A DNA stretch of 64,000 nucleotides from Prosthecobacter dejongeii (GTDB lineage Bacteria; Verrucomicrobiota; Verrucomicrobiia; Verrucomicrobiales; Verrucomicrobiaceae). The stretch's first letter is position 1, and the number at the start of each line of letters is the position of its first letter. The stretch spans positions 682,001-746,000 of the forward strand of contig NZ_JACHIF010000001.1 of assembly GCF_014203045.1 (NCBI RefSeq). The letters run 5' to 3'. This document shows, piece after piece, positions 8,743 through 62,264 of the stretch. Position numbers and translations under genes: made by a program. The notes beneath the pieces are model-generated. The model was not told the origin of the DNA. It made no database searches and saw only the letters and a list, made by a program, of their open reading frames with translations.

Positions 8743-11100
8743 CTAGGGCTGGCGTGGCTTGAGGATCATGGAGCGTGTGCTTTTGAAGGCCTTGAGCTGG
8801 GCTTGCGCACCCTGAATCTCAAGACGCACGCTGCCATCCGCCTCCAGATCGAAGAGCGGCACCTGCTGCTGCTGGCAAAAGTCGCGCAGGCGCTGGGGCA
8901 GGGTTTCTTCAGGGCTGTAGCGGTCGTTGGAGCTGATGATGGCCTGTGGTTGCGCGGCCAGAAGAAGCTCCGTGAGACCGGCGATGTCGGCGCTGTGCTG
9001 GTGCCGAACTAAAAGGTCGCAACGCAGTGTGTCTGGCTTCTCCAGCAGGCGTTTTTCAGTGATGAAGCCAGCGTCGTTGAGCCACAGCACGCGAAAGGCC
9101 CCGAGGTGGATCATGAGAACCAGACCACGATCATCGGCCTTTTCGTGGAGGTCACGTGGCCCCGGGTGCAGGACTTGAGCGGTGATGGGTTGGGTTTCAT
9201 ACGGAGCGATGGGGATGGTCTGGCCCTGCTCATGGCGCTGCCAGAGGGGGCTGTCTGGATGGACTTGAGTGCTGAGTTTTTTCAGGCTGGAAAAAGGTGG
9301 ATCGGGCTTCCAGGGTTCTAGGTGACTGGTGTGCAGGGTGGGCCTGCCCTGGGCGGCAAGCACCCAGGGGGCTGCACCCACATGGGAGATGTCTGAATGG
9401 CTGAGGATGAGACCCTGGAGCTGATCCACCCCAGCCTGCCGGAGAAAGGGCCGCACGACATACCGCCACTGATCCTCATTTCCCGTATCCAGCAGCCAGT
9501 GCTGCGAGCCGCTGGCCAAATATGCGGCCCCACCACCAAACGGAAGCTGGAAGACCTGTATCGCGGCCTCCGGCGCAGTCACCTGCACCACATTCACGTG
9601 ATGATTTGCCCCCGGCCATGTGGCGAACCAAGTGGCCGCCGCCACCATGAAACTGGCGAGGTGGGCATTAAGCTGATTAAACGCCGCGACAGCCCAGCCC
9701 CAGTGCAAACTCGCAAAAACCAAGCTGATGCAGGACAGCAGAAGGCACAGCTCCGATGCAGGCACGAGGATCAGATTTGACACCAGAGCCACCGGTGAAA
9801 AGGTCTGAAAATGGCCTAACAAAAAGGGCAGACTTCCGAACCAGGCGGCGATGGAGCTGAATAATAAAGCGGCTGCCCACATGCGAAGTCGTGAGCCGCA
9901 GCGCTGCCCATAGGTAGCCAGGGTGGGTGGGAGATACGGGTCCAGCTCTGACCAGGCGTGGGTCAAGGTGAGCAGGCCGGAGGCGATCATGACGATGGCT
10001 AGCAACACAAAAAAGGAGAGCTGGAAGCCGGGCATAAACAGCAGGTGAGTCTCTGCCGTGAGCAGCAGCAGGGCCACGGCCCCCAGGATATTGATGACCT
10101 GGGATTTACGATTCAGCAGCGGTGCCGCGAGAACAAAGGCCGTCATGAAGGCCGCCCGTGCGGCGGAAGGGCGCCAACCAGTGATGAAGGCATACGCAAA
10201 GACGAGGAGGATGAGGACGATGCTGAGGCGTAGGCGGCCTAACCAACTGAGGCCCATGGAGGCGATGTGGGCCAGCATGACGACGTGAAGGCCACTGACG
10301 GCAAAGACATGCAGGGTGCCGCTGTCGCGGAAGGCGTCTTCAATGTCCTTACCTGCGGCATCGGAGGCACCGAGAGCCATGGCCAAGATGACGCCAGCCT
10401 GGGTAGGCTGAGACTCCAGGCCCTGAGTGAGCCGCTGAGTGATCCACTGCCGGGAGGCTTCCGCTGCATGCAGGAGACGAAACCGAAGAGCTAGCGCATC
10501 TGCCTTTTCCAGGGTGATTTCCTGGGCTTTTAAGGTGGCCACCCAGCCCATGCGTAAGCTGTAAGTGACGGCATCGAACTGACCGGGATTGTTAGGCGGT
10601 GCAGGCAGACTGAGACGGCCCTGGAGAGTGTAGATACCGGGGGTAGCGAGGGTGTAACCCTCCGGTAGGCGCACTTTAACACTGAGTTTCTGCGGCGTGA
10701 ACTGTGTCTCCCGTGACCATTTGAGGTGCGTCACTTCACAGAGGGCGGTGGCCTGATCCAGCTCGGCCCCTTCAGTCCAGGGATACAACCGCCCCTGCAC
10801 CGTGGCCGTTTCTGCTGTATCGGGGCGGGTGAGTAGATGCTGCCGCACGGGATGGCCGAAGGTCTCTGCCAACCGCTGCGAATGCCAAAAGATGAACCCT
10901 AGACAGATGAGTGGCAGGGCCGTGGCAAGGCCTGGACGATAGGCGAAATACAGCCCAACCAAAAGCGTGACAAGGCAGAAACCCAACCCAGGAGTGTAGG
11001 CCTGAAACTCGGCAACTAGGATACCCACGATGGCCGCCAGCATGAGCAGCAGCATGGGGTAGCGACTGGGCCACGGGAGGAAGCGAGAGCGGAAAGACAT
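8743..11100 (-). CDS. comEC: ComEC/Rec2-family DNA uptake channel
   Basis: About 785 residues from the ATG at 11100; a GTG at 11160 would extend it over the end of the upstream gene. The N-terminal spans and OB-like domain are followed by the competence core with FRDSGTLHVFAVSGLHVVMLAHIA and the GWRPSAARAAFMTAFVL helix, both diagnostic. The C-terminal metallo-beta-lactamase-like domain begins around residue 525 with WLLDTGNEDQ and LILSHSDISHVGAA. The canonical HxDxDHxGG is HSDISHVGAA here: the second aspartate and both glycines are changed, which may weaken metal binding and nuclease activity. ComEC moves single-stranded DNA across the inner membrane during transformation. It is 34 bases downstream of the TPR membrane protein and probably co-transcribed with it. 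Confidence 0.9.
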   Translation of the reverse strand: MSFRSRFLPWPSRYPMLLLMLAAIVGILVAEFQAYTPGLGFCLVTLLVGLYFAYRPGLATALPLICLGFIFWHSQRLAETFGHPVRQHLLTRPDTAETATVQGRLYPWTEGAELDQATALCEVTHLKWSRETQFTPQKLSVKVRLPEGYTLATPGIYTLQGRLSLPAPPNNPGQFDAVTYSLRMGWVATLKAQEITLEKADALALRFRLLHAAEASRQWITQRLTQGLESQPTQAGVILAMALGASDAAGKDIEDAFRDSGTLHVFAVSGLHVVMLAHIASMGLSWLGRLRLSIVLILLVFAYAFITGWRPSAARAAFMTAFVLAAPLLNRKSQVINILGAVALLLLTAETHLLFMPGFQLSFFVLLAIVMIASGLLTLTHAWSELDPYLPPTLATYGQRCGSRLRMWAAALLFSSIAAWFGSLPFLLGHFQTFSPVALVSNLILVPASELCLLLSCISLVFASLHWGWAVAAFNQLNAHLASFMVAAATWFATWPGANHHVNVVQVTAPEAAIQVFQLPFGGGAAYLASGSQHWLLDTGNEDQWRYVVRPFLRQAGVDQLQGLILSHSDISHVGAAPWVLAAQGRPTLHTSHLEPWKPDPPFSSLKKLSTQVHPDSPLWQRHEQGQTIPIAPYETQPITAQVLHPGPRDLHEKADDRGLVLMIHLGAFRVLWLNDAGFITEKRLLEKPDTLRCDLLVRHQHSADIAGLTELLLAAQPQAIISSNDRYSPEETLPQRLRDFCQQQQVPLFDLEADGSVRLEIQGAQAQLKAFKSTRSMILKPRQP

Positions 11101-55483: not shown

Positions 55484-55570
55484 AGCGGTGGAGCTCGGAG
55501 GATTTCTCACAAAAGCCACAGCCCAGGAGTGAGACATCCTGACTGATGGCGATTTCATGGTCCCATTCTT

Positions 55571-55959
55571 CAGCCCGCAGGGCTACCCATGAATAGCCGG
55601 AGGTGCCGCGAGCCTCGGTGAGCCAACCTCCGGATGCGCACCGATAATGCCCTCCCAATCTGGGACAACCCGCAGGGTTGCCCGATCACCCCGCCTGTTG
55701 TTCAGCCCGCAGGGCTACCCATGAATAGCCGGAGGTGCCGCGAGCCTCGGCGAGCCAACCTCCGGATGCGCGCCGATAATGCCCTCCCAATCTGGGACAA
55801 CCCGCAGGGTTGCCCGATCACTCCGCCTGTTGTTCAGCCCGTAGGGCTACCCATGAATAGCCGGAGGTGCCGCGAGCCTCGGCGAGCCAACCTCCGGATG
55901 CGCGCCGATGAGGTCCTCCCAATCTGGGACAACCCGCAGGGTTGCCCGATCACTCCGCC
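55571..55959 (+). repeat. Three tandem copies of a 132-base repeat
   Basis: Copies start at 55571, 55703 and 55835, exactly 132 bases apart, differing at few positions. Each carries CAGCCCGCAGGGCTACCC, GAATAGCCGGAGGTGCCGCG, a second GC-rich arm and ACCCGCAGGGTTGCCC. The arms are partly palindromic, so the units fold into hairpins like REP/BIME elements. They lie just past the Y1 transposase gene's 3' end, and an inverted partial copy lies on its other side at 56593-56654. Confidence 0.85.
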
Positions 55960-55974
55960 TCATCCCTCAGCCCA

Positions 55975-56451
55975 CTACCCTTCATTGTCACGGTCATGAA
56001 TAGCTAAACCAACTTCAGACAAGAGACGCTCGTACTCCTGCCGAAACGTCTCTTCACGATGATGGGCTTCTTGATTCCGAATATAGTCAATCAAGGCCGA
56101 TTTCTGCTCCAACGAACAAGTAAAGGCACCATAACCTTCTTGCCAATAAGTGAAATTGGGAAATACCTTTTGGCCCTTGATCCAGGCTGATGATGCCGTT
56201 TTGACTTCTTTGACCAGATCCGAAAGAGCCACACTGGGATGAAGACTGATCAGCATGTGCAGATGATCTTCCACTCCTCCGATCCGATAGAGATGGCATT
56301 GGCGATTTTTCAGCACGCCCCAGATGAAACGAAACAGCTCATCGCGACGAGCTTGGTCAAGCACTCGCTCGCGATGTTTGGTCGCAAAGACAATATGATA
56401 AAGAATCTGGGTGTAGGTAGCCACGTGCCGTGGTAAAAAGAAATGACACAC
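55975..56451 (-). mobile_element. IS200/IS605-like Y1 transposase, REP-associated (RAYT) type
   Basis: 158 residues from a GTG at 56451. It is a Y1 HUH transposase: the HUH pair is in GGVEDHLHMLISL and the catalytic tyrosine in ALIDYIRNQEAHHREE. YHIVFATKHRERV and FTYWQEGYGAFTCS are typical of the REP-associated transposase subgroup. There is no TnpB/IscB accessory gene. Repeats with palindromic arms flank it on both sides, as with RAYT genes that mobilise or process REP elements by single-strand cleavage. The gene is less GC-rich than its surroundings. The frame is intact, so it may still be active. Confidence 0.85.
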
Positions 56452-56545
56452 CCGTTTTAAAGGTCAAAGTGTTCTAGGAGGAGCTAAGCCCCTTGAGGAA
56501 TTCAGACCAGTAGGGGTAACTTCATGAAATGAGCAGGTGATGGGC

Positions 56546-56560
56546 CTACCCTCCGGGTAG
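56546..56560. repeat. REP-like hairpin upstream of the Y1 transposase
   Basis: CTACCC (56546-56551), loop TCC, GGGTAG (56555-56560): a perfect 6-base stem. The CTACCC/GGGTAG arms match those in the 132-base repeats (GGGCTACCC). It sits about 95 bases beyond the transposase start, in the 290-base gap up to rnhA. Confidence 0.55.
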
Positions 56561-56592
56561 CCTCGGGATAGCAGGATCATGATTCAATACCA

Positions 56593-56654
56593 GAGGTTAG
56601 CTCGCCAAAGCTCGCTTCACCTCCGGCTATTTATGGAGAGCCCTACGGGCTCAG
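56593..56654 (-). repeat. Inverted partial copy of the 132-base repeat
   Basis: Read on the minus strand, this stretch gives AGCCCGTAGGGCT, then CATAAATAGCCGGAGGTGAA and GCGAGCTTTGGCGAGCTAACC, which follows the order of the 132-base unit (CAGCCCGTAGGGCTACCCAT, GAATAGCCGGAGGTGCCGCG, GAGCCTCGGCGAGCCAACC). It is diverged and inverted relative to the three tandem copies, so the transposase gene is bracketed by opposed repeats. Confidence 0.7.
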
Positions 56655-56741: not shown

Positions 56742-57233
56742 TTAAAGCAACGATGCAGGTTTCGCCTTCGCCAGTTCATACCCCTCATCGGCCTGAAGCC
56801 CACCGGATTTAGAAGCAGCGACGGCGAGTTCGTCACAGCGGTTGTTGCCCGCGTTGGAAGCATGGCCTTTCACCCAGCGAATGGTCACCTTGTGTTTTTC
56901 CAGAGCTTTCAAGGCGCGATCCCAGAGGTCGGCATTCACCGCAGGTTGCTTGTCCGCCTTCACCCAGCCCCGAGCTTTCCAGCTCTTAGCCCAGCCCTTT
57001 TGCACCGTATCCACGACGTATTTGGAATCGGAAAAAAGCGTGACCGTGCAGGGGCGATTCAGCAGCTCCAGGCCCTTGATGAGAGCCATCAGCTCCATGC
57101 GATTGTTCGTCGTGCGACGATAACCCTCAGAAAGTTCCTTGGTGTGCGCGCCCGCCTGCAGCAACACCCCATAGCCACCTGGGCCCGGATTGCCGCTACA
57201 TGCGCCATCAGTGTAAATAGTAACGGAAGTCAT
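56742..57233 (-). CDS. rnhA: Ribonuclease HI
   Basis: 163 residues from the ATG at 57233; a longer frame to 57317 has no family similarity. The four catalytic acids are Asp9 (YTDGACSGNPGPGGYG), Glu47 (NRMELMA), Asp69 (FSDSKYVVD) and Asp134 (RCDELA), and the basic loop WAKSWKARGW is present. It cuts the RNA strand of RNA-DNA hybrids, for example at replication primers and R-loops. The last residues (GGLQADEGYELAKAK) are an ordinary short tail. The gene lies 28 bases downstream of the GNAT gene on the same strand and may share its transcript, although its housekeeping role is unrelated to lipid genes. The gap below it holds the REP-like repeats. Confidence 0.95.
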   Translation of the reverse strand: MTSVTIYTDGACSGNPGPGGYGVLLQAGAHTKELSEGYRRTTNNRMELMALIKGLELLNRPCTVTLFSDSKYVVDTVQKGWAKSWKARGWVKADKQPAVNADLWDRALKALEKHKVTIRWVKGHASNAGNNRCDELAVAASKSGGLQADEGYELAKAKPASLL

Positions 57234-57261
57234 GTCGAAAAAGAAAGTGAAGACGGCGCCG

Positions 57262-58194
57262 TCAGATCTCAGCTGTGTCCACCCACCAGTCATAGCCAGC
57301 TTTAATCCGATGACCATAAATTGTGGCTGGAGCTTCTTCCACTTTCAGATCTTTGAGGTAAAGCCGCAGGACTGCCATTTGAGACCGGGGGACGGCGGTG
57401 AAAACGGCGGGCATTTGTTGCAGTGCGGCTTCCTGAACGGCCCTCCGAATCGTCTCGGCACCCTGCTGGGCAGTGTCAAAATACAACCCGGAAAGGTGGG
57501 CAGAGACCATCTCCACACCGCTATCAGACCATAGCTGCTTACTCAGTCGGGTATCTTCAAGCAGACCGCGCATTTTCCCTCCTTCATCCAAGATCGGCAC
57601 GGGTGGCATCTGAGAACGCAGTCCGGAGCGCCCGCCTGTTACGATGCAAGCCGGAGGGCCTGGACATGTTTTCTCCACTGCATGGCCCGCTTTGGCCTCA
57701 GTATTTTGCAATGAAGAAAGACGGAGCACCACAATCTCGGCCACTTTTTCAAAGAGTGGAATCCCCACTCTCCCTGTATAGCTAATAGGCAGGCGGCCAG
57801 TGCCGTTCATGACGATGCCATAACAGCTTCGCGACTTGCTCCGTTCGATCTGCCGCCGCGCCTCATTCATCAGCAGCGCGAGCACACGACTGCCACGCGC
57901 CTGCGGGCTGATTTTGAGATCGCACAGGTAATGGGCCAACTGCGTCATCGGGCATTCACCCTGCCAATGCAGCCAGCGCTGCACCCGCGCCAGAGTGCCT
58001 ATGACCTCCCCTTCGCGCTCGACAACAAGCAAAGTCGCTGGTCCCATGGCGGTAAAAAATGGCAGATACGCCCGGCCATGGGAGATGGAGAAGTGGCCGC
58101 TGTCCCCTAGAGGATATCGGAACTGCCCCTCGAATCTCTCCAGCGCCTCACCCATCCATCTAGGCGGCGGCTCGGAATAGCAGTGCAGAGTCAT
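57262..58194 (-). CDS. GNAT-fold acyltransferase-like protein, last of the lipid cluster
   Basis: 310 residues. The GNAT core lies in the first half: LLVVEREGEVIGTLARVQRW, then a YLCDLKISPQARGSRVLALLMNEARRQIE stretch (in parts) with the R/Q-x-x-G-x-G/S acetyl-CoA loop (QARGSRV). The second half is a separate, weakly conserved domain (MPAVFTAVPRSQMAVLRL, ending AGYDWWVDTAEI). It may be a double-GNAT protein with an inactive second half. Its start overlaps the DUF3419 stop by four bases (ATGA, 58191-58194). In the setting of that cluster it could N- or O-acylate a lipid head group, which is inference only. The base composition is slightly lower in GC than the genes above it. Confidence 0.65.
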   Translation of the reverse strand: MTLHCYSEPPPRWMGEALERFEGQFRYPLGDSGHFSISHGRAYLPFFTAMGPATLLVVEREGEVIGTLARVQRWLHWQGECPMTQLAHYLCDLKISPQARGSRVLALLMNEARRQIERSKSRSCYGIVMNGTGRLPISYTGRVGIPLFEKVAEIVVLRLSSLQNTEAKAGHAVEKTCPGPPACIVTGGRSGLRSQMPPVPILDEGGKMRGLLEDTRLSKQLWSDSGVEMVSAHLSGLYFDTAQQGAETIRRAVQEAALQQMPAVFTAVPRSQMAVLRLYLKDLKVEEAPATIYGHRIKAGYDWWVDTAEI

Positions 58195-59219
58195 AGTCGG
58201 GTGCCAACCAAGATGCGGGGATAGAAAAAACTGCGGTCTCGTTTTTCCATGGCTTCCCCCTGGGCTCGATCCCAGCGGATTCCATCGACCAACGTCTCTA
58301 TTTCGAGCGTGGAGTTAAGCTGGCGAATGATAAGACGCGCGCCCGGCTTCATCACCCGCGCTGCCGCTGCAAGGGTCTGCGCCGCATGGGCGGGGGGAAG
58401 CCAGTCGAGGATGTTGGAAAGGTGCACTAGGTCCGCACTCGCAGGCGGAAGGTCATCCAGGACTTCCTGCATACGACCTTGATGCCAGACGATTTCTGCT
58501 TGCAGCGGCTCGGTGGATCTTAACCAGTCATAAGGACAGCCTGGGGCAAAACGTCCGCCATACATCTGGTGCAAAAAGGGATTGGTTGCGGCATCGGCAC
58601 GGCTCAGTGCCACCCGTGTGCGCCAGGCGAAATGTTCATGAAAAGGCAGACGCGGATTTTGAGTGGCCTCCTGGCCAAAAAGGGCCACCAGATTGGCCAG
58701 GGACATCACCTTCGCCAAGGCTTCATCCAAACCGTTTTGGTTTATTGACACGCCCGGGGGTAGAGCCTGACGCAGTGTGGCAAAGCAGCGTTCATACCTT
58801 CCCAAATGATCCGGCCCATGCTCGGACACCAAGGACGGAGGACCGAAGACATCCGCGGGTAAATCCAGAATCTCCAGCCGAGGAAGCAACGCTTCTTCAC
58901 GTTCTAGTGCTGGCAAAGGCGCATGGCCTAACAGATTGCATGATACCATGGCCGATTCATGGGTGGCAAGATGAGCCTTGAACCGTGCTAAGGCCAACTG
59001 GGCGGGATTCACATCAACCGCATGGATGCGGGCCAGTGGCAGGCGCGCGAGCTGGATCAATGTTTCACCACCAGAAGCAATCATGACGACGGTGGCATTT
59101 TCAGGCAAAGCCGTGGCTAGCTCCACATCCAGCGCGGGATCTTCCCGCACCTGGGCAAAGGCCAGAGGCAACTTGGCGGCCTCAAGAGCCCAGGGATCGG
59201 CGGGGGGCAGGTCGTTCAT
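58191..59219 (-). CDS. DUF3419-family protein, BtaA-like aminocarboxypropyl transferase
   Basis: 342 residues from the ATG at 59219, which avoids a longer overlap with the upstream gene. The SAM-binding block is VVMIASGGETLIQLA with VDVNPAQLALARFKAHL, the form used by DUF3419/BtaA proteins. BtaA transfers the 3-amino-3-carboxypropyl group of SAM to diacylglycerol in the first step of betaine-lipid synthesis. Conserved C-terminal elements are PYDWLRST, VHLSNILDWLPP and RLIIRQLNS. The BtaB N-methyltransferase normally needed for betaine lipids is not adjacent. It starts inside the PAP2 gene (38-base overlap) and ends in the GNAT gene start. The family call is good; the head-group chemistry is inferred. 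Confidence 0.75.
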   Translation of the reverse strand: MNDLPPADPWALEAAKLPLAFAQVREDPALDVELATALPENATVVMIASGGETLIQLARLPLARIHAVDVNPAQLALARFKAHLATHESAMVSCNLLGHAPLPALEREEALLPRLEILDLPADVFGPPSLVSEHGPDHLGRYERCFATLRQALPPGVSINQNGLDEALAKVMSLANLVALFGQEATQNPRLPFHEHFAWRTRVALSRADAATNPFLHQMYGGRFAPGCPYDWLRSTEPLQAEIVWHQGRMQEVLDDLPPASADLVHLSNILDWLPPAHAAQTLAAAARVMKPGARLIIRQLNSTLEIETLVDGIRWDRAQGEAMEKRDRSFFYPRILVGTRL

Positions 59220-60012
59220 GGCAGATCTGAAGGATAAGGAAGAGCAGCAGGCTGGCGAGCAAATCCACAGCATAATGCAGCCTAAGAGCGACGGTGGCCA
59301 CCATCATGAGAGCAGAGGGGGCCAGCATGGCCCAGAAGCGAGCGCGGAAGTGCGCCCAGTCCCAGGCCAGCAGCGTGAGCGTGATGAGTAAATGTAGGCT
59401 TGGAAACGCATCGTATCTGGCGGCCATCATGCTATTGATCTGCTGGTTCCAGGCAGTGAGCACCCCACCTTTGACCGGCTCTGAAAAGAGCTCAGGAAAA
59501 GCGACGGCGGGAGGCGCAGCGGGGTACAATAGATAACCAACAAATCCGAGGCCAAAGGCGGCGAACAAAGGTGCGCTGATCTGGCTACGCCAAGACGGAT
59601 CGCGCCACAGGGCATCCAACAACACCCAGTGTAGGTAAAGGTGGTAACTCAAGTACCCGAAACTCAGTTCTTCGTTTGCCCACAGGGCCAGACGCCCCTG
59701 CCATGAGATGGCAGGTGATGACCCAAACATTGCAGCATCCGCTTCCAGCAGCTCCCGATGCCGCAGTGGAATACCCAGCACCTCTACCAGAGTGGAGGAG
59801 CTAGCATAAAAGGCCCAAGCCACTAAATAGCTACCGACCAGCCGCATGCGGTCACCGCTTTGCGTCCTCCACAACAAGACAGCATAGGCCACCATTCCAC
59901 ACACTGCACTTATAGTTAGGCCATGCACGCCTTTCACCCAAAACAGGGCAGCCAGGACACCGGAGCCGAGAACCAAGAACAGAAACTCATGTCTAGCTGG
60001 GACTGGTCTCAT
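59182..60012 (-). CDS. PAP2-family membrane phosphatase or head-group transferase
   Basis: 276-residue integral membrane protein with about six spans. Catalytic motifs are YDAFPSLHL (residues 200-208; the PSxH motif with His207) and LHYAVD (245-250; His246, Asp250). A YPAAPPAV segment near 163-170 is typical of the PAP2_3 branch, which includes inositolphosphorylceramide synthases and other lipid phosphotransferases. It could dephosphorylate phosphatidic acid to diacylglycerol, the substrate for BtaA-like enzymes, or exchange a head group. Its start overlaps the stop of the desaturase gene by four bases (60009-60012) and its 3' end overlaps the DUF3419 gene by 38 bases. Confidence 0.82.
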   Translation of the reverse strand: MRPVPARHEFLFLVLGSGVLAALFWVKGVHGLTISAVCGMVAYAVLLWRTQSGDRMRLVGSYLVAWAFYASSSTLVEVLGIPLRHRELLEADAAMFGSSPAISWQGRLALWANEELSFGYLSYHLYLHWVLLDALWRDPSWRSQISAPLFAAFGLGFVGYLLYPAAPPAVAFPELFSEPVKGGVLTAWNQQINSMMAARYDAFPSLHLLITLTLLAWDWAHFRARFWAMLAPSALMMVATVALRLHYAVDLLASLLLFLILQICHERPAPRRSLGS

Positions 60013-60956
60013 ACCCGAGGCTCCACTTTTTGCTTCGGACCCAGCGGGCTACGCCGGAGGCTACCAGTGACGAACTCCTGCACAAATGCCCAGTAGGAGC
60101 GGATAAAGGGTGCACCCTGCTCCTTCAGTGGCTGTTTCAGCGCCTCATGCACCTGCGGTAGATGATGCCACGGCACACCGGGGTAGAGGTGATGCTCCAG
60201 GTGGTAGTTTTCATTGCACATGAAGAAACGAACGATGGGATAAGTGAGAATGGTGCGCGTGCCGCGCACCTCATCATCCGCATGTTCCAGTAGCGTGTGC
60301 TGGCTCATGCCGCGGATATTGACCATGGTATTGATGAAAAGCATGGGGATGAACCAGCCATGCCACAACCACCGAGCGGGCAGCCATTCCAAAGCCAGCC
60401 AGATGAGCATGAGAGTGGCTGCGACTTCCGCTAAGATACCCACCCGATCACGCCTCGTGCCATGCCTGAAACCGAGAATCGGAATCGCAGTGATGTAAAT
60501 GGGATATCCGATGAGCAGCCGCAGCCAGTTCATGATGAACACCAACCAAGTCCAGCGGGTGTAGCTAGCGTAGTGATCAGGATCATTTTCCTCCCCCAGG
60601 TGCTGATGATGGCGCAGGTGCAGCACACGGTAGGCGCTGAAGTTTTGAAGCACAGGAATGGCGCACAAGGAACCGCCCATAGCATTCAAGAAACGACGAT
60701 GAGAAAGCGTACCATGCACAGCCTCATGGGTAAACAGGCTAACACCATGCAGGGAGGCCGCCGCGAGAAGATACAGCGGCACCAGCAGCAGCCACTGCCA
60801 CCCGTGCGTGACTTGCGCCGCAGCCGTGCAGGCAGTCCAGGCCGCCGCGCCATACAGCCCGGCGAAGATGAAAAGGCGCAGCACATGCTGGCCAGCAGCC
60901 CGCGTGTGGCAGAGGCGCAGGAGCTCAGGCGGCAGCGTGGGCGGTGGCAGGCTCAT
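60009..60956 (-). CDS. Membrane fatty-acid desaturase-like protein
   Basis: 315 residues from the ATG at 60956; an ATG at 61013 is longer. Three histidine boxes are in the correct order for membrane di-iron desaturases: HEAVH (77-81), HLRHHQH (113-119) and HLEHH near residue 262. There are four predicted spans between them. It introduces a double bond, or hydroxylates, an acyl chain while it is attached to a lipid. Its stop overlaps the PAP2 gene start by four bases (ATGA), and its start lies within the end of the oxidase gene (32-base overlap). Tight packing of these genes is strong evidence of a shared pathway. Other members of the superfamily include hydroxylases and ketolases, so the exact reaction is not known. 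Confidence 0.83.
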   Translation of the reverse strand: MSLPPPTLPPELLRLCHTRAAGQHVLRLFIFAGLYGAAAWTACTAAAQVTHGWQWLLLVPLYLLAAASLHGVSLFTHEAVHGTLSHRRFLNAMGGSLCAIPVLQNFSAYRVLHLRHHQHLGEENDPDHYASYTRWTWLVFIMNWLRLLIGYPIYITAIPILGFRHGTRRDRVGILAEVAATLMLIWLALEWLPARWLWHGWFIPMLFINTMVNIRGMSQHTLLEHADDEVRGTRTILTYPIVRFFMCNENYHLEHHLYPGVPWHHLPQVHEALKQPLKEQGAPFIRSYWAFVQEFVTGSLRRSPLGPKQKVEPRV

Positions 60957-61677
60957 GAGGGCGGGTAGGTTGGGCTTCCTCCAAAAGATCCTCATAGAGG
61001 CGATTAAAGACATGCAGGCCCAGCTTCACGCCATCCTGTACAGCGGCGCGGTTCTCGCCCCCACGATCCCATGATCCTGCGACGATCTGGAAAAAATCCG
61101 CTGCATGGCGCTGGTCAATCTCTGCATGGAGCTTGTAGTGAACAAGGTCCTCAAAAGCAATCCACCCCTGCTTCACCACCTGCTCACCTATGAGAGCGGA
61201 GATGTCTGCAAAAGTGTGTTCGATGACGCCCAGACACCCGAAGGCGACTTCGATGGGCTCCATGAGGCAGGTCCCCATCAGGCTGGTGTTAAAGGCCCGG
61301 ACGGCGGGCCCTTCCCGCAGCCGTCGCACCTCCTCGCGAGACACACCAAGGGTGGCCAAAAATTGCTGGAAGCTCATGTCATGCGCCAGTCTAGGGTCAA
61401 AGCCTGCTGGGCTTTCCCCCTCATCTCCATCCTCAAAACCATGTTCCTCAGAAAGATTGTGGATGAGCCCCTGGCGCAGCGCAGAGCTTGGCATGCGCGC
61501 CGTCAGTGCCGCCATGGGCCGGGAGAAATAGCGCACGGCAAAAAAGAACTGCTGTTGCGTTTCCCGGAATACCTCGCGATCCAGCTGCCCCTCACGCAAG
61601 GCCGTGAAGTAGAGGTTTTGTAGCAGGGGATGCGTATTCGCCTCGGCCACTACCCAGCGGATAAGTTCATGATTCAT
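60925..61677 (-). CDS. Haem-oxygenase-like iron oxidase (HDO/TenA-like fold)
   Basis: 250 residues from the ATG at 61677; 61722 is a longer in-frame start. All-helical, no signal peptide. It carries H-x-x-x-D-x-x-H (His184, Asp188, His191; YKLHAEIDQRHAADFF), the metal-binding pattern of CADD and other HDO enzymes, and acidic NLSEEHG at residues 74-80. HDO enzymes use non-haem iron and O2 for unusual reactions, such as the decarboxylation of medium-chain fatty acids to 1-alkenes by UndA, or N-oxygenation. Beside a desaturase and PAP2 it may act on a fatty acyl chain. The overlap with the desaturase is 32 bases. Confidence 0.75.
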   Translation of the reverse strand: MNHELIRWVVAEANTHPLLQNLYFTALREGQLDREVFRETQQQFFFAVRYFSRPMAALTARMPSSALRQGLIHNLSEEHGFEDGDEGESPAGFDPRLAHDMSFQQFLATLGVSREEVRRLREGPAVRAFNTSLMGTCLMEPIEVAFGCLGVIEHTFADISALIGEQVVKQGWIAFEDLVHYKLHAEIDQRHAADFFQIVAGSWDRGGENRAAVQDGVKLGLHVFNRLYEDLLEEAQPTRPHEPATAHAAA

Positions 61678-61730
61678 GCAGAAGAATACTTGGCAGACAA
61701 AGGGCCTGCGAAAGTTGTTCATCTTAAGAT

Positions 61731-62264
61731 TTATAATAACGTCTCCAGCAGTGCCTTCAGCCCGCGTGTATCGGGCAGAGTATGAGTGGCGGAAACGAGG
61801 TGGGGGTTTTCGCTTTCGATGCGGATGCTGATGGGGACACCGGCATGGGTGCCCATTTCGATGTCGCGATCAGCATCGCCGATCATGAAGCTGTGGGCGA
61901 GATCGAGATCGTGCTCCTGGGCTGCACGCAGCAGCATCTCAGCACTGGGTTTCCGGCAGGTGCAGGTGGGGTCTTTGGAAAGGCAGGTGCAGGCGTAGAT
62001 GCCATCGAAGGCGGCATCGTGCAGAGCCAGCTCTGCCTGCATCCGGGCATGGATGTCATCCAGCGTGGCCTGGGTCATCAGCCCTTTGCCCACCCCCTGC
62101 TGGCTGGTGGCTAAAATGGTGGCGTAACCACGAGCTCGACAAAAGGCCAGAGCCTCGACAATGCCCGGACTGAAATGAAAATCTTCCCAGCGGAGGACGT
62201 ATCCGGCTCCTGGAGAAAGATTGACGACTCCATCGCGGTCAAAAAAAACAACCGGTCGGCTCAT
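61731..62264 (-). CDS. HAD phosphatase, GmhB-like
   Basis: 177 residues. Motif I is FFDRDGVVN (nucleophile Asp near residue 9), motif II is TSQQGVGKG, motif III is the Lys of CRKPSAEM, and motif IV is IGDADRDIE. A Cys-rich zinc loop (YACTCLSKDPTCTCRKP) corresponds to the C-x-H-x-C-x-C zinc site of GmhB, which removes the 7-phosphate from heptose-1,7-bisphosphate for LPS core sugar or S-layer synthesis. Histidinol-phosphatases of the same fold are a less likely alternative. Its start overlaps the ribD stop by four bases (62261-62264), so these two genes are coupled. It ends 53 bases ahead of the oxidase gene and may be in the same operon. Confidence 0.8.
   Translation of the reverse strand: MSRPVVFFDRDGVVNLSPGAGYVLRWEDFHFSPGIVEALAFCRARGYATILATSQQGVGKGLMTQATLDDIHARMQAELALHDAAFDGIYACTCLSKDPTCTCRKPSAEMLLRAAQEHDLDLAHSFMIGDADRDIEMGTHAGVPISIRIESENPHLVSATHTLPDTRGLKALLETLL

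Follow-up and report, generated by a model that had tools for sequence, protein, structure and literature searches.

The closest described relatives of the enzymes considered here belong to separate systems. The protein-myristoylating enzyme N-myristoyltransferase (NMT) is known from animals, plants and fungi; UndA and UndB are 1-alkene enzymes; and among the haem-oxygenase-like diiron oxidases (HDOs), relatives of the CADD and BesC type use as substrate either an amino acid or a Tyr of the enzyme itself. BtaA, a DUF3419 protein, and BtaB form a betaine lipid pathway. Bacteria also make N-acylated amino-acid lipids, such as ornithine lipids (OlsBA, OlsF, OlsH/OlsI) and the products of NasY synthesis, and these occur in Planctomycetota as well; the excerpts of the two reports name other enzymes than those described below, and neither DUF3419 nor HDO (PMC12493201, PMC12479983). 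Here, a stretch of 64,000 nucleotides from Prosthecobacter dejongeii (contig NZ_JACHIF010000001.1, positions 682,001 to 746,000; the window) was investigated, in which a cassette of five minus-strand genes (57234..61740) brings an HDO, a DUF3419 protein and an NMT-like acyltransferase together. We read it tentatively, at slightly below even chances, as a horizontally mobile operon for an N-acylated, S-adenosylmethionine (SAM)-derived aminocarboxypropyl (homoserine-type) lipid, which would again be a bacterial N-acylated amino-acid lipid. The enzyme families are known, and their combination appears to be without a report in the open-licence literature: among the matches listed, screened by title and start of abstract, no description of the gene set or of a bacterial NMT-like acyltransferase was found. 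This agrees with an earlier note on this DNA, whose author knew of no characterized cluster with this gene order.

Read along the minus strand, the cassette encodes a CADD/BesC-like HDO (60925-61677), an FA_desaturase-family membrane diiron enzyme (60009-60956), a PAP2_3-family membrane phosphatase or phosphotransferase (59182-60012), a DUF3419 protein of the BtaA superfamily that falls in a separate clade and is a predicted SAM:acceptor aminocarboxypropyl transferase (58191-59219), and the NMT-like tandem-GNAT acyltransferase (57262-58194). We confirmed the five open reading frames (ORFs) and their overlaps of 32, 4 (ATGA), 38 and 4 (ATGA) bases with the starts chosen in the earlier note; longest-ORF starts give longer overlaps at two junctions, and alignments with relatives favored the earlier choice. 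The first four family assignments of that note stood, the proteins scoring above their Pfam cut-offs: PF14518 for the HDO (7e-17, 62 bits), PF00487 for the desaturase (1e-44, 153.6 bits against a cut-off of 29.7), PF14378 for PAP2 (1e-16, 61.4 bits against 27) and PF11899 for DUF3419 (7e-26, 91.8 bits against 28.2, in two stretches). The fifth, GNAT, did not reach this level, since the GNAT Pfam matches of that protein were all below cut-off (E 0.015). The five-gene arrangement is far beyond chance: its order is retained in relatives and its core recurs in other phyla.

The distribution of the gene set was then investigated. A contig scan with a DUF3419 alignment yielded 37 loci in Verrucomicrobiota, Planctomycetota, one gammaproteobacterial metagenome-assembled genome (MAG) and one Sandaracinaceae MAG. 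The scan used two peptide patterns, which divergent members such as a copy on a Mycobacterium plasmid escape, and this distribution is therefore a lower bound. Whole-genome DUF3419 searches matched 18 of 288 genomes of the host order (E up to 1e-30), as well as 12/392 genomes in the phylum of the Roseiconus genome and 5/235 in that of the Sandaracinaceae genome (both E up to 1e-20), the last two counts including the centre genome and others already known from the contig scan. The core recurs in Planctomycetota, Myxococcota, the gammaproteobacterial MAG and the Mycobacterium plasmid. Carriers include named, apparently cultured strains, namely Haloferula sp. BvORR071, Verrucomicrobium sp. BvORR034 and BvORR106, and Roseiconus nitratireducens JC645.

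Profiles of the GNAT-type protein and the HDO (both E up to 1e-15) matched the same 18 genomes of the host order as the DUF3419 profile; at these cut-offs, the three were always matched jointly in a genome of the order or not at all. Thus, DUF3419, GNAT type and HDO are inherited and lost together. The profiles were built from loci of this module and the 18 matches are partly given by construction, so that the information lies in the lack of matches in the remaining 270 genomes; the 18 genomes are related and do not represent 18 independent events, and scoring covered the top 7 to 10 candidates of each genome, which leaves room for misses. Pairwise protein distances correlated with r of 0.85-0.93 among DUF3419, GNAT type, HDO and desaturase. 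One pathway unit, as had been suggested for the five genes, is supported by these observations; that the five form an indivisible set is not. The conserved core consists of DUF3419, GNAT type and HDO, and the desaturase and PAP2 are add-ons.

Gene order, whose conservation had been proposed as a test, was not confined to close relatives. Among 55 loci (with BTA for the DUF3419 gene and DES for the desaturase gene), we observed HDO-DES-PAP2-BTA-GNAT in 14, HDO-DES-BTA-GNAT in 14, BTA-GNAT-HDO in 11, BTA-GNAT in 6, BTA alone in 3 and other orders in 7. By manual count, the GNAT-type gene accompanied the DUF3419 gene in 51 of the 53 loci whose downstream sequence extends for 300 bases or more, and an HDO gene was present within 5 kb on the same strand in 45/55; in L129 the HDO gene sits between the other two. 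Nearly all loci were found with a DUF3419 query, so that the presence of this gene is by construction, and they are not independent, as near-identical strains (L048, L062, L095) and the two halves of one genome (L060, L061) were counted. The MAG names of L044, L047 and L060 are possibly mislabeled, the PAP2 match of L069 covers about 68 residues and is probably spurious, and the DES matches of L039 and L054 are fragments. Separately, two Planctomycetota MAGs carry an HDO gene (L103 8312-8995 and L104 9660-10343) away from BTA-GNAT, with no partner recognized nearby.

In a further step, the structure of the acyltransferase was predicted with AlphaFold2 (pLDDT 91.1, pTM 0.89). The 50 best entries from VIA-align were all NMTs, aligned over 263-271 of 310 residues with Z of 17.1-18.1, a root mean square deviation (rmsd) of 3.5-4.0 and 8-12% identity. 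Similarly, the 50 best rows of a Foldseek search of the whole PDB were all NMTs (E 1e-9 to 2e-8, TMq 0.56-0.61), with loose alignments of Foldseek's own (rmsd 7-9); both lists end at these 50 entries, and the distance to non-NMT tandem GNATs lies outside them. The predicted model has the tandem GNAT fold of NMT, and we consider it quite likely that the protein has an NMT-like tandem-GNAT architecture.

The model and NMT also share an end point. In all rows but one, a truncated NMT variant, the last aligned residue of the model was residue 310, opposite residue 496 of human NMT1, the C-terminal residue of that enzyme (PMC7048800). Among 44 complete homologues, the same Ile is the exact last residue in 43 (TAEI 23, TSEI 12, SSEI 4, TSDI 2, TAQI 1, TSTI 1), a count that leaves out six rows cut by contig ends and one with ambiguous letters (L057, in which the reading continues past NSAEI). 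The exception, L065, comes from a MAG in which the DUF3419 gene, too, is fragmented, and a frameshift is suspected. As a control, the tails past the last conserved column measured 1-32 residues in the HDO and 0-16 in the desaturase (fused protein excluded). A constant end alone is not proof, since the DUF3419 proteins also end fairly constantly, at one residue in 46 of 53. NMT catalysis uses the C-terminal carboxylate as base and an oxyanion hole formed by backbone atoms of Phe247 and Leu248 (PMC7048800). In human NMT1, truncation by three residues lowered kcat/Km to 0.4%, with kcat decreasing only from 0.41 to 0.22 per second, and after truncation by two residues Glu244 could take over as the base (PMC7048800). 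The excerpt of a review calls the role of this carboxylate unique to NMT among GNATs (PMC4964394). The C-terminal DTAEI of the acyltransferase (57265..57279, minus strand) is thus a candidate catalytic carboxylate, and its HYLCDLK segment (residues 88-94; 57913..57933, minus strand) is a candidate oxyanion-hole strand. Y89 and K94 of this segment were invariant in 44/44 rows, at a spacing that matches Phe247 and Lys252 of NMT, the match being one of spacing in the sequence.

At the level of sequence, no Pfam NMT model matched any of 26 acyltransferase members (E up to 10). PF01233 scored over its cut-off in 0/24 genomes, the nine weak matches all lying elsewhere in the genomes, and the sole PDB match of the acyltransferase profile was an AAC3-I acetyltransferase, with E 0.41. 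The protein is therefore NMT-like in predicted architecture and does not belong to the NMT family by sequence. It resembles eukaryotic NMT in the tandem GNAT fold of its model (Z of about 18 across 266 residues), its C-terminal end point and an oxyanion-type strand of similar spacing; it differs from it in the low identity, in the lack of a Pfam NMT match and in its place in a bacterial operon. A bacterial system in which this enzyme acylates protein N termini would suit the predicted fold and the fixed C terminus, but all 18 genomes of the order that match the acyltransferase profile also hold DUF3419 and HDO, and no substrate protein recurs beside the acyltransferase among ORFs of at least 90 amino acids, which makes such a system very improbable. 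The substrate is probably not a glycine-starting protein.

We then compared the DUF3419 protein with the canonical BtaA of the same genome, to which it is 22% identical. Positions E26-D27, D69, Q74, D272-W273, R299, D328-R329 and Y333 are common to both, and structural matches of the predicted model point to a fold of the methyltransferase type (the best with Z 14.5 across 155 residues). In a phylogenetic tree, 47 module rows split from 14 other DUF3419 rows with support of 97/95; this tree omits 8 of the 55 module sequences (short or ambiguous), and its long branch and arbitrary root are to be kept in mind. The module DUF3419 did not group with the canonical BtaA proteins. It is not the genome's own btaA either, since a canonical btaA followed by a BtaB-like methyltransferase gene, with a 4-base overlap, exists elsewhere in the window genome. 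The label "BtaB-like" is based on position and a methyltransferase domain. In the same genus, a DUF3419 protein at L020 (G056) sits on a long branch near the split between canonical and module proteins, with no BtaB-like match in its 3.4-kb locus, and is possibly a third subfamily.

A BtaB-like gene was found in 0/55 module loci, compared to 12/14 other DUF3419 loci (L020 and L022 being negative), and the positive control, the match beside the canonical btaA of the window genome, was recovered. The statement that no BtaB is present is thus true of the cassette and does not extend to the genome. The difference in counts supports the notion of aminocarboxypropyl-type chemistry with N-acylation in place of methylation. 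The module shares with the BtaA/BtaB pathway the DUF3419 family, the expected SAM aminocarboxypropyl chemistry and a membrane lipid context, and it differs in its separate clade and in the addition of an HDO and an N-acyltransferase. Of the 18 module genomes of the order, 10 encode a BtaA-type protein above 200 bits, among them every one of the 8 from the same genus, and the other 8 encode none; outside the order, 4 of 6 module genomes had one. The module therefore neither replaces nor requires BtaA, indicating a different product. Membership of DUF3419 would also suit a divergent operon for a DGTS-type betaine lipid that has lost btaB. However, the module proteins form their own clade, their loci lack the BtaB-like gene found in most other DUF3419 loci, and the window genome already has a canonical btaA with its BtaB-like neighbor, so that we regard such an operon as highly unlikely.

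The HDO was compared with solved structures using its profile (E up to 0.1). The five PDB matches comprised CADD (1.7e-16), BesC (1.7e-10), 4-aminobenzoate synthase and, weakly, a TenA homologue; no UndA chain was among them. The iron ligands and the three desaturase His boxes claimed previously were present and conserved across relatives. Specifically, the HDO has the two-iron ligand set of this fold, mapped on CADD: E78, H99, E153, H184 and D188 were found in 45/45 rows and H191 in 44/45. At the site of the sacrificial Tyr27 of CADD, 37 of the 45 HDO rows carry F, 5 carry L, 2 carry V and one has a gap, and the site of CADD Lys152 falls in a gap of the alignment. A CADD-type 4-aminobenzoate synthase was thus rejected, as neither site is retained. 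Scores against NCBIfam were far below the cut-offs, with 40.5 bits for CADD (cut-off 200) and 30.5 for BesC (cut-off 500), and the protein does not qualify as a BesC equivalog. The HDO is therefore like CADD and BesC in fold and in its six metal ligands, and unlike them in the two sites and in these scores.

HDOs appear specialized for amino-acid substrates, according to the excerpt of a study (PMC13185094). Together with CADD and BesC as the nearest solved relatives, this favors, by analogy, an amino-acid-bearing substrate of the HDO over a free fatty acid. The pathway originally proposed for the cassette was different: a UndA-like HDO would tailor a fatty acid, BtaA would make diacylglyceryl-homoserine and the GNAT would N-acylate it. 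DUF3419, PAP2 and the desaturase do suit a diacylglycerol-based lipid, and an HDO and a desaturase-family enzyme in lipid metabolism recall UndA and UndB. In contrast to UndA/UndB, both enzymes stand here in one operon with others, and the HDO matches listed do not support UndA-like decarboxylation of a fatty acid. As the DUF3419 protein also lies outside the canonical BtaA clade and coexists with a BtaA-type protein in more than half of the module genomes of the order, we consider that pathway improbable.

The desaturase has PF00487 over cut-off together with three His boxes (H77/H81, H113/H116/H117, H252/H255/H256), whose eight His were invariant in 17 rows, as in membrane fatty acid desaturases. 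Its profile had no PDB match (E up to 0.1), a poor test given the 638 positions that include a fused row. This row is L055, in which desaturase and PAP2 are fused into one protein of 645 residues with both domains, tying the two to each other. Nearly every Verrucomicrobiota locus has the desaturase and many have PAP2; in many otherwise complete loci PAP2 was not found. A lipid product, as the earlier note had it, is plausible in view of the desaturase and PAP2 in many loci, their fusion and an MmpL-type transporter beside the mycobacterial copy.

RtxC oxidizes a homoserine ether in rhizobitoxine synthesis. By a comparable route, the desaturase-family enzyme could oxidize a homoserine ether made by DUF3419 to an enol-ether amino acid, with N-acylation masking or anchoring the product. 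Desaturase-family membrane enzymes that act on amino acids exist, and the best NCBIfam match of the desaturase is one, GntB. The 82 bits of this match are far under the GntB cut-off of 380, and many core loci have no desaturase, leaving an enol-ether product with little probability.

The divergent copy lies on a linear plasmid of Mycobacterium riyadhense, where genes for DUF3419 (38% identical), HDO and GNAT type (33%) are directly followed by an MmpL-type RND transporter gene (TIGR00833, 1123 bits against a cut-off of 875). The module profiles matched its proteins with E of 4.6e-116 (DUF3419), 1.8e-95 (GNAT type) and 4e-85 (HDO), and the GNAT-type protein likewise ends in INTAEI. MmpL proteins in mycobacteria export envelope lipids, and the neighbor therefore favors an amphiphilic product. 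In this stretch (L172 11831-18479), genes for three tyrosine recombinases in tandem follow as well, with PE/PPE genes alongside, and the region is a candidate for a plasmid-borne mobile lipid locus.

An amphiphilic product need not be a membrane lipid. In the main alternative, the pathway would yield an N-acyl amino acid or a small peptide-like metabolite that is soluble or secreted: DUF3419 would alkylate a small acceptor (or act LuxI-like on N-acyl-SAM), the HDO would desaturate or cleave the intermediate, the NMT-like enzyme would add a fatty tail, and MmpL would export the product in mycobacteria. There are indeed copies of the core trio that lack the desaturase and PAP2, in Planctomycetota, in Myxococcota and on the Mycobacterium plasmid, Planctomycetota have N-acyl tyrosines, as stated in the excerpt of the report (PMC12479983), and the amino-acid preference of HDOs would fit as well. 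On the other side, Verrucomicrobiota loci nearly always include the desaturase and often PAP2, and no further family recurs at a fixed place beside the set (ORFs of at least 90 amino acids). We consider such a metabolite a serious candidate, if a somewhat unlikely one.

For the membrane lipid that we tentatively prefer, the steps may be as follows. The accessory PAP2 and desaturase would provide a membrane lipid such as diacylglycerol as the acceptor and set its unsaturation; the DUF3419 enzyme would transfer a SAM-derived aminocarboxypropyl group; the CADD/BesC-like HDO would oxidize the amino-acid-bearing intermediate using O2; and the NMT-like tandem GNAT, whose C-terminal carboxylate would serve as the base, would attach a long acyl chain to the primary amine. 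This pathway is favored by the co-occurrence in the same 18 genomes, the pairing in 51/53 loci, the distance correlation, the L055 fusion and the MmpL neighbor, and equally by the missing BtaB-like gene, the NMT-like fold with its fixed C terminus, the DUF3419 family with a SAM-type fold and the relatives of the HDO. From the gene set with its conservation, co-occurrence and cassette nature, and from the predicted folds, conserved ligands and C terminus, we infer every reaction, the reaction order, the acceptor and the long-chain acyl donor.

Several observations weigh against the lipid pathway, which is predicted from genes and modeled structures. Next to the missing Pfam NMT matches and the bounded structural lists mentioned above, L126 and L127 have a DUF3419 gene without an acyltransferase gene despite room for it, the DUF3419 protein of L127 lying on a very long branch. 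L128 is a BTA-GNAT pair with no HDO found within 6 kb downstream, and two Planctomycetota genomes (L066, L068) have only BTA-GNAT locally, with the HDO elsewhere in the genome. Many core loci lack both the desaturase and PAP2, so that the core need not be membrane-bound, and the acceptor of the module DUF3419 may not be a lipid, since its clade is distant. Finally, HDO relatives about 60% identical to the mycobacterial HDO occur on six Streptomyces plasmids. In the three annotated records examined (L173-L175, about 9292-10690), the HDO follows an EF-hand protein in 3/3, and a full search of four of the six stretches gave no DUF3419 match and one weak GNAT match 8 kb away; HDO plus EF-hand protein is a separate two-gene association without DUF3419.

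It is possible, although we think it doubtful, that several phyla carry a mobile three-enzyme pathway for an unknown class of N-acyl aminocarboxypropyl lipids, acylated by NMT-like C-terminal-carboxylate catalysis, and that NMT may share ancestry with its acyltransferase. If so, NMT may descend from, or share an ancestor with, bacterial lipid-forming enzymes. To find a predicted NMT topology together with a fixed C terminus in a bacterial tandem GNAT bears on the origin of eukaryotic NMT, and the family of this protein offers a second test of C-terminal-carboxylate catalysis. Moreover, a core found across phyla with a testable product prediction provides a handle on a possible new class of bacterial lipids.

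The cassette lies downstream of a gmhB-like gene and immediately upstream of what is probably the start codon of rnhA (57231-57233, base 57233 being the first base of the codon). In G013, the closest relative found, window position 57233 aligned by blastn to L167 9929 and position 61741 to 9944, with 14 bases between them. There, rnhA stands directly beside the gmhB-like gene, and the 4,507 bases that carry the whole gene set are missing; the RibD proteins of both genomes are 97% identical. In G014, rnhA also adjoins the gmhB-like gene, 44 bases separating the aligned blocks, and G017, G046 and G035 have about 0.76-0.78 kb at the equivalent site. The five genes are a discrete, movable unit with an empty site in relatives. 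Gain in the window genome is the simplest direction, since rnhA, the gmhB-like gene and ribD adjoin the set only there among 45 loci; the alternative is loss elsewhere. Cassette and empty site offer a clean comparison of strains with and without the set.

The G+C content of the cassette (57.5%) showed no contrast to that of the window (58.2%), and a foreign composition was thus rejected. In the same 45 loci, compared by their ORFs of at least 90 amino acids without individual annotation, no family beyond the five recurred at a fixed place beside the set. A DUF1501-like gene, recognized by eye, was discarded as a conserved flank, being found in 10/45 loci at distances from 28 bases to more than 5 kb; other common flanks were mostly those of close relatives. 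The five proteins had no match in PHROGs, and promoter and terminator counts were within the range of shuffled sequences (2 against a mean of 1.6, and 3 against 4.3). At 55566-56651 of the window, a gene for a Y1_Tnp (IS200-like) transposase (55975-56451) lies between three tandem 132-nt repeats and an inverted 62-nt copy that is 82-85% complementary, an arrangement that looks like a REP element set with a RAYT-type transposase.

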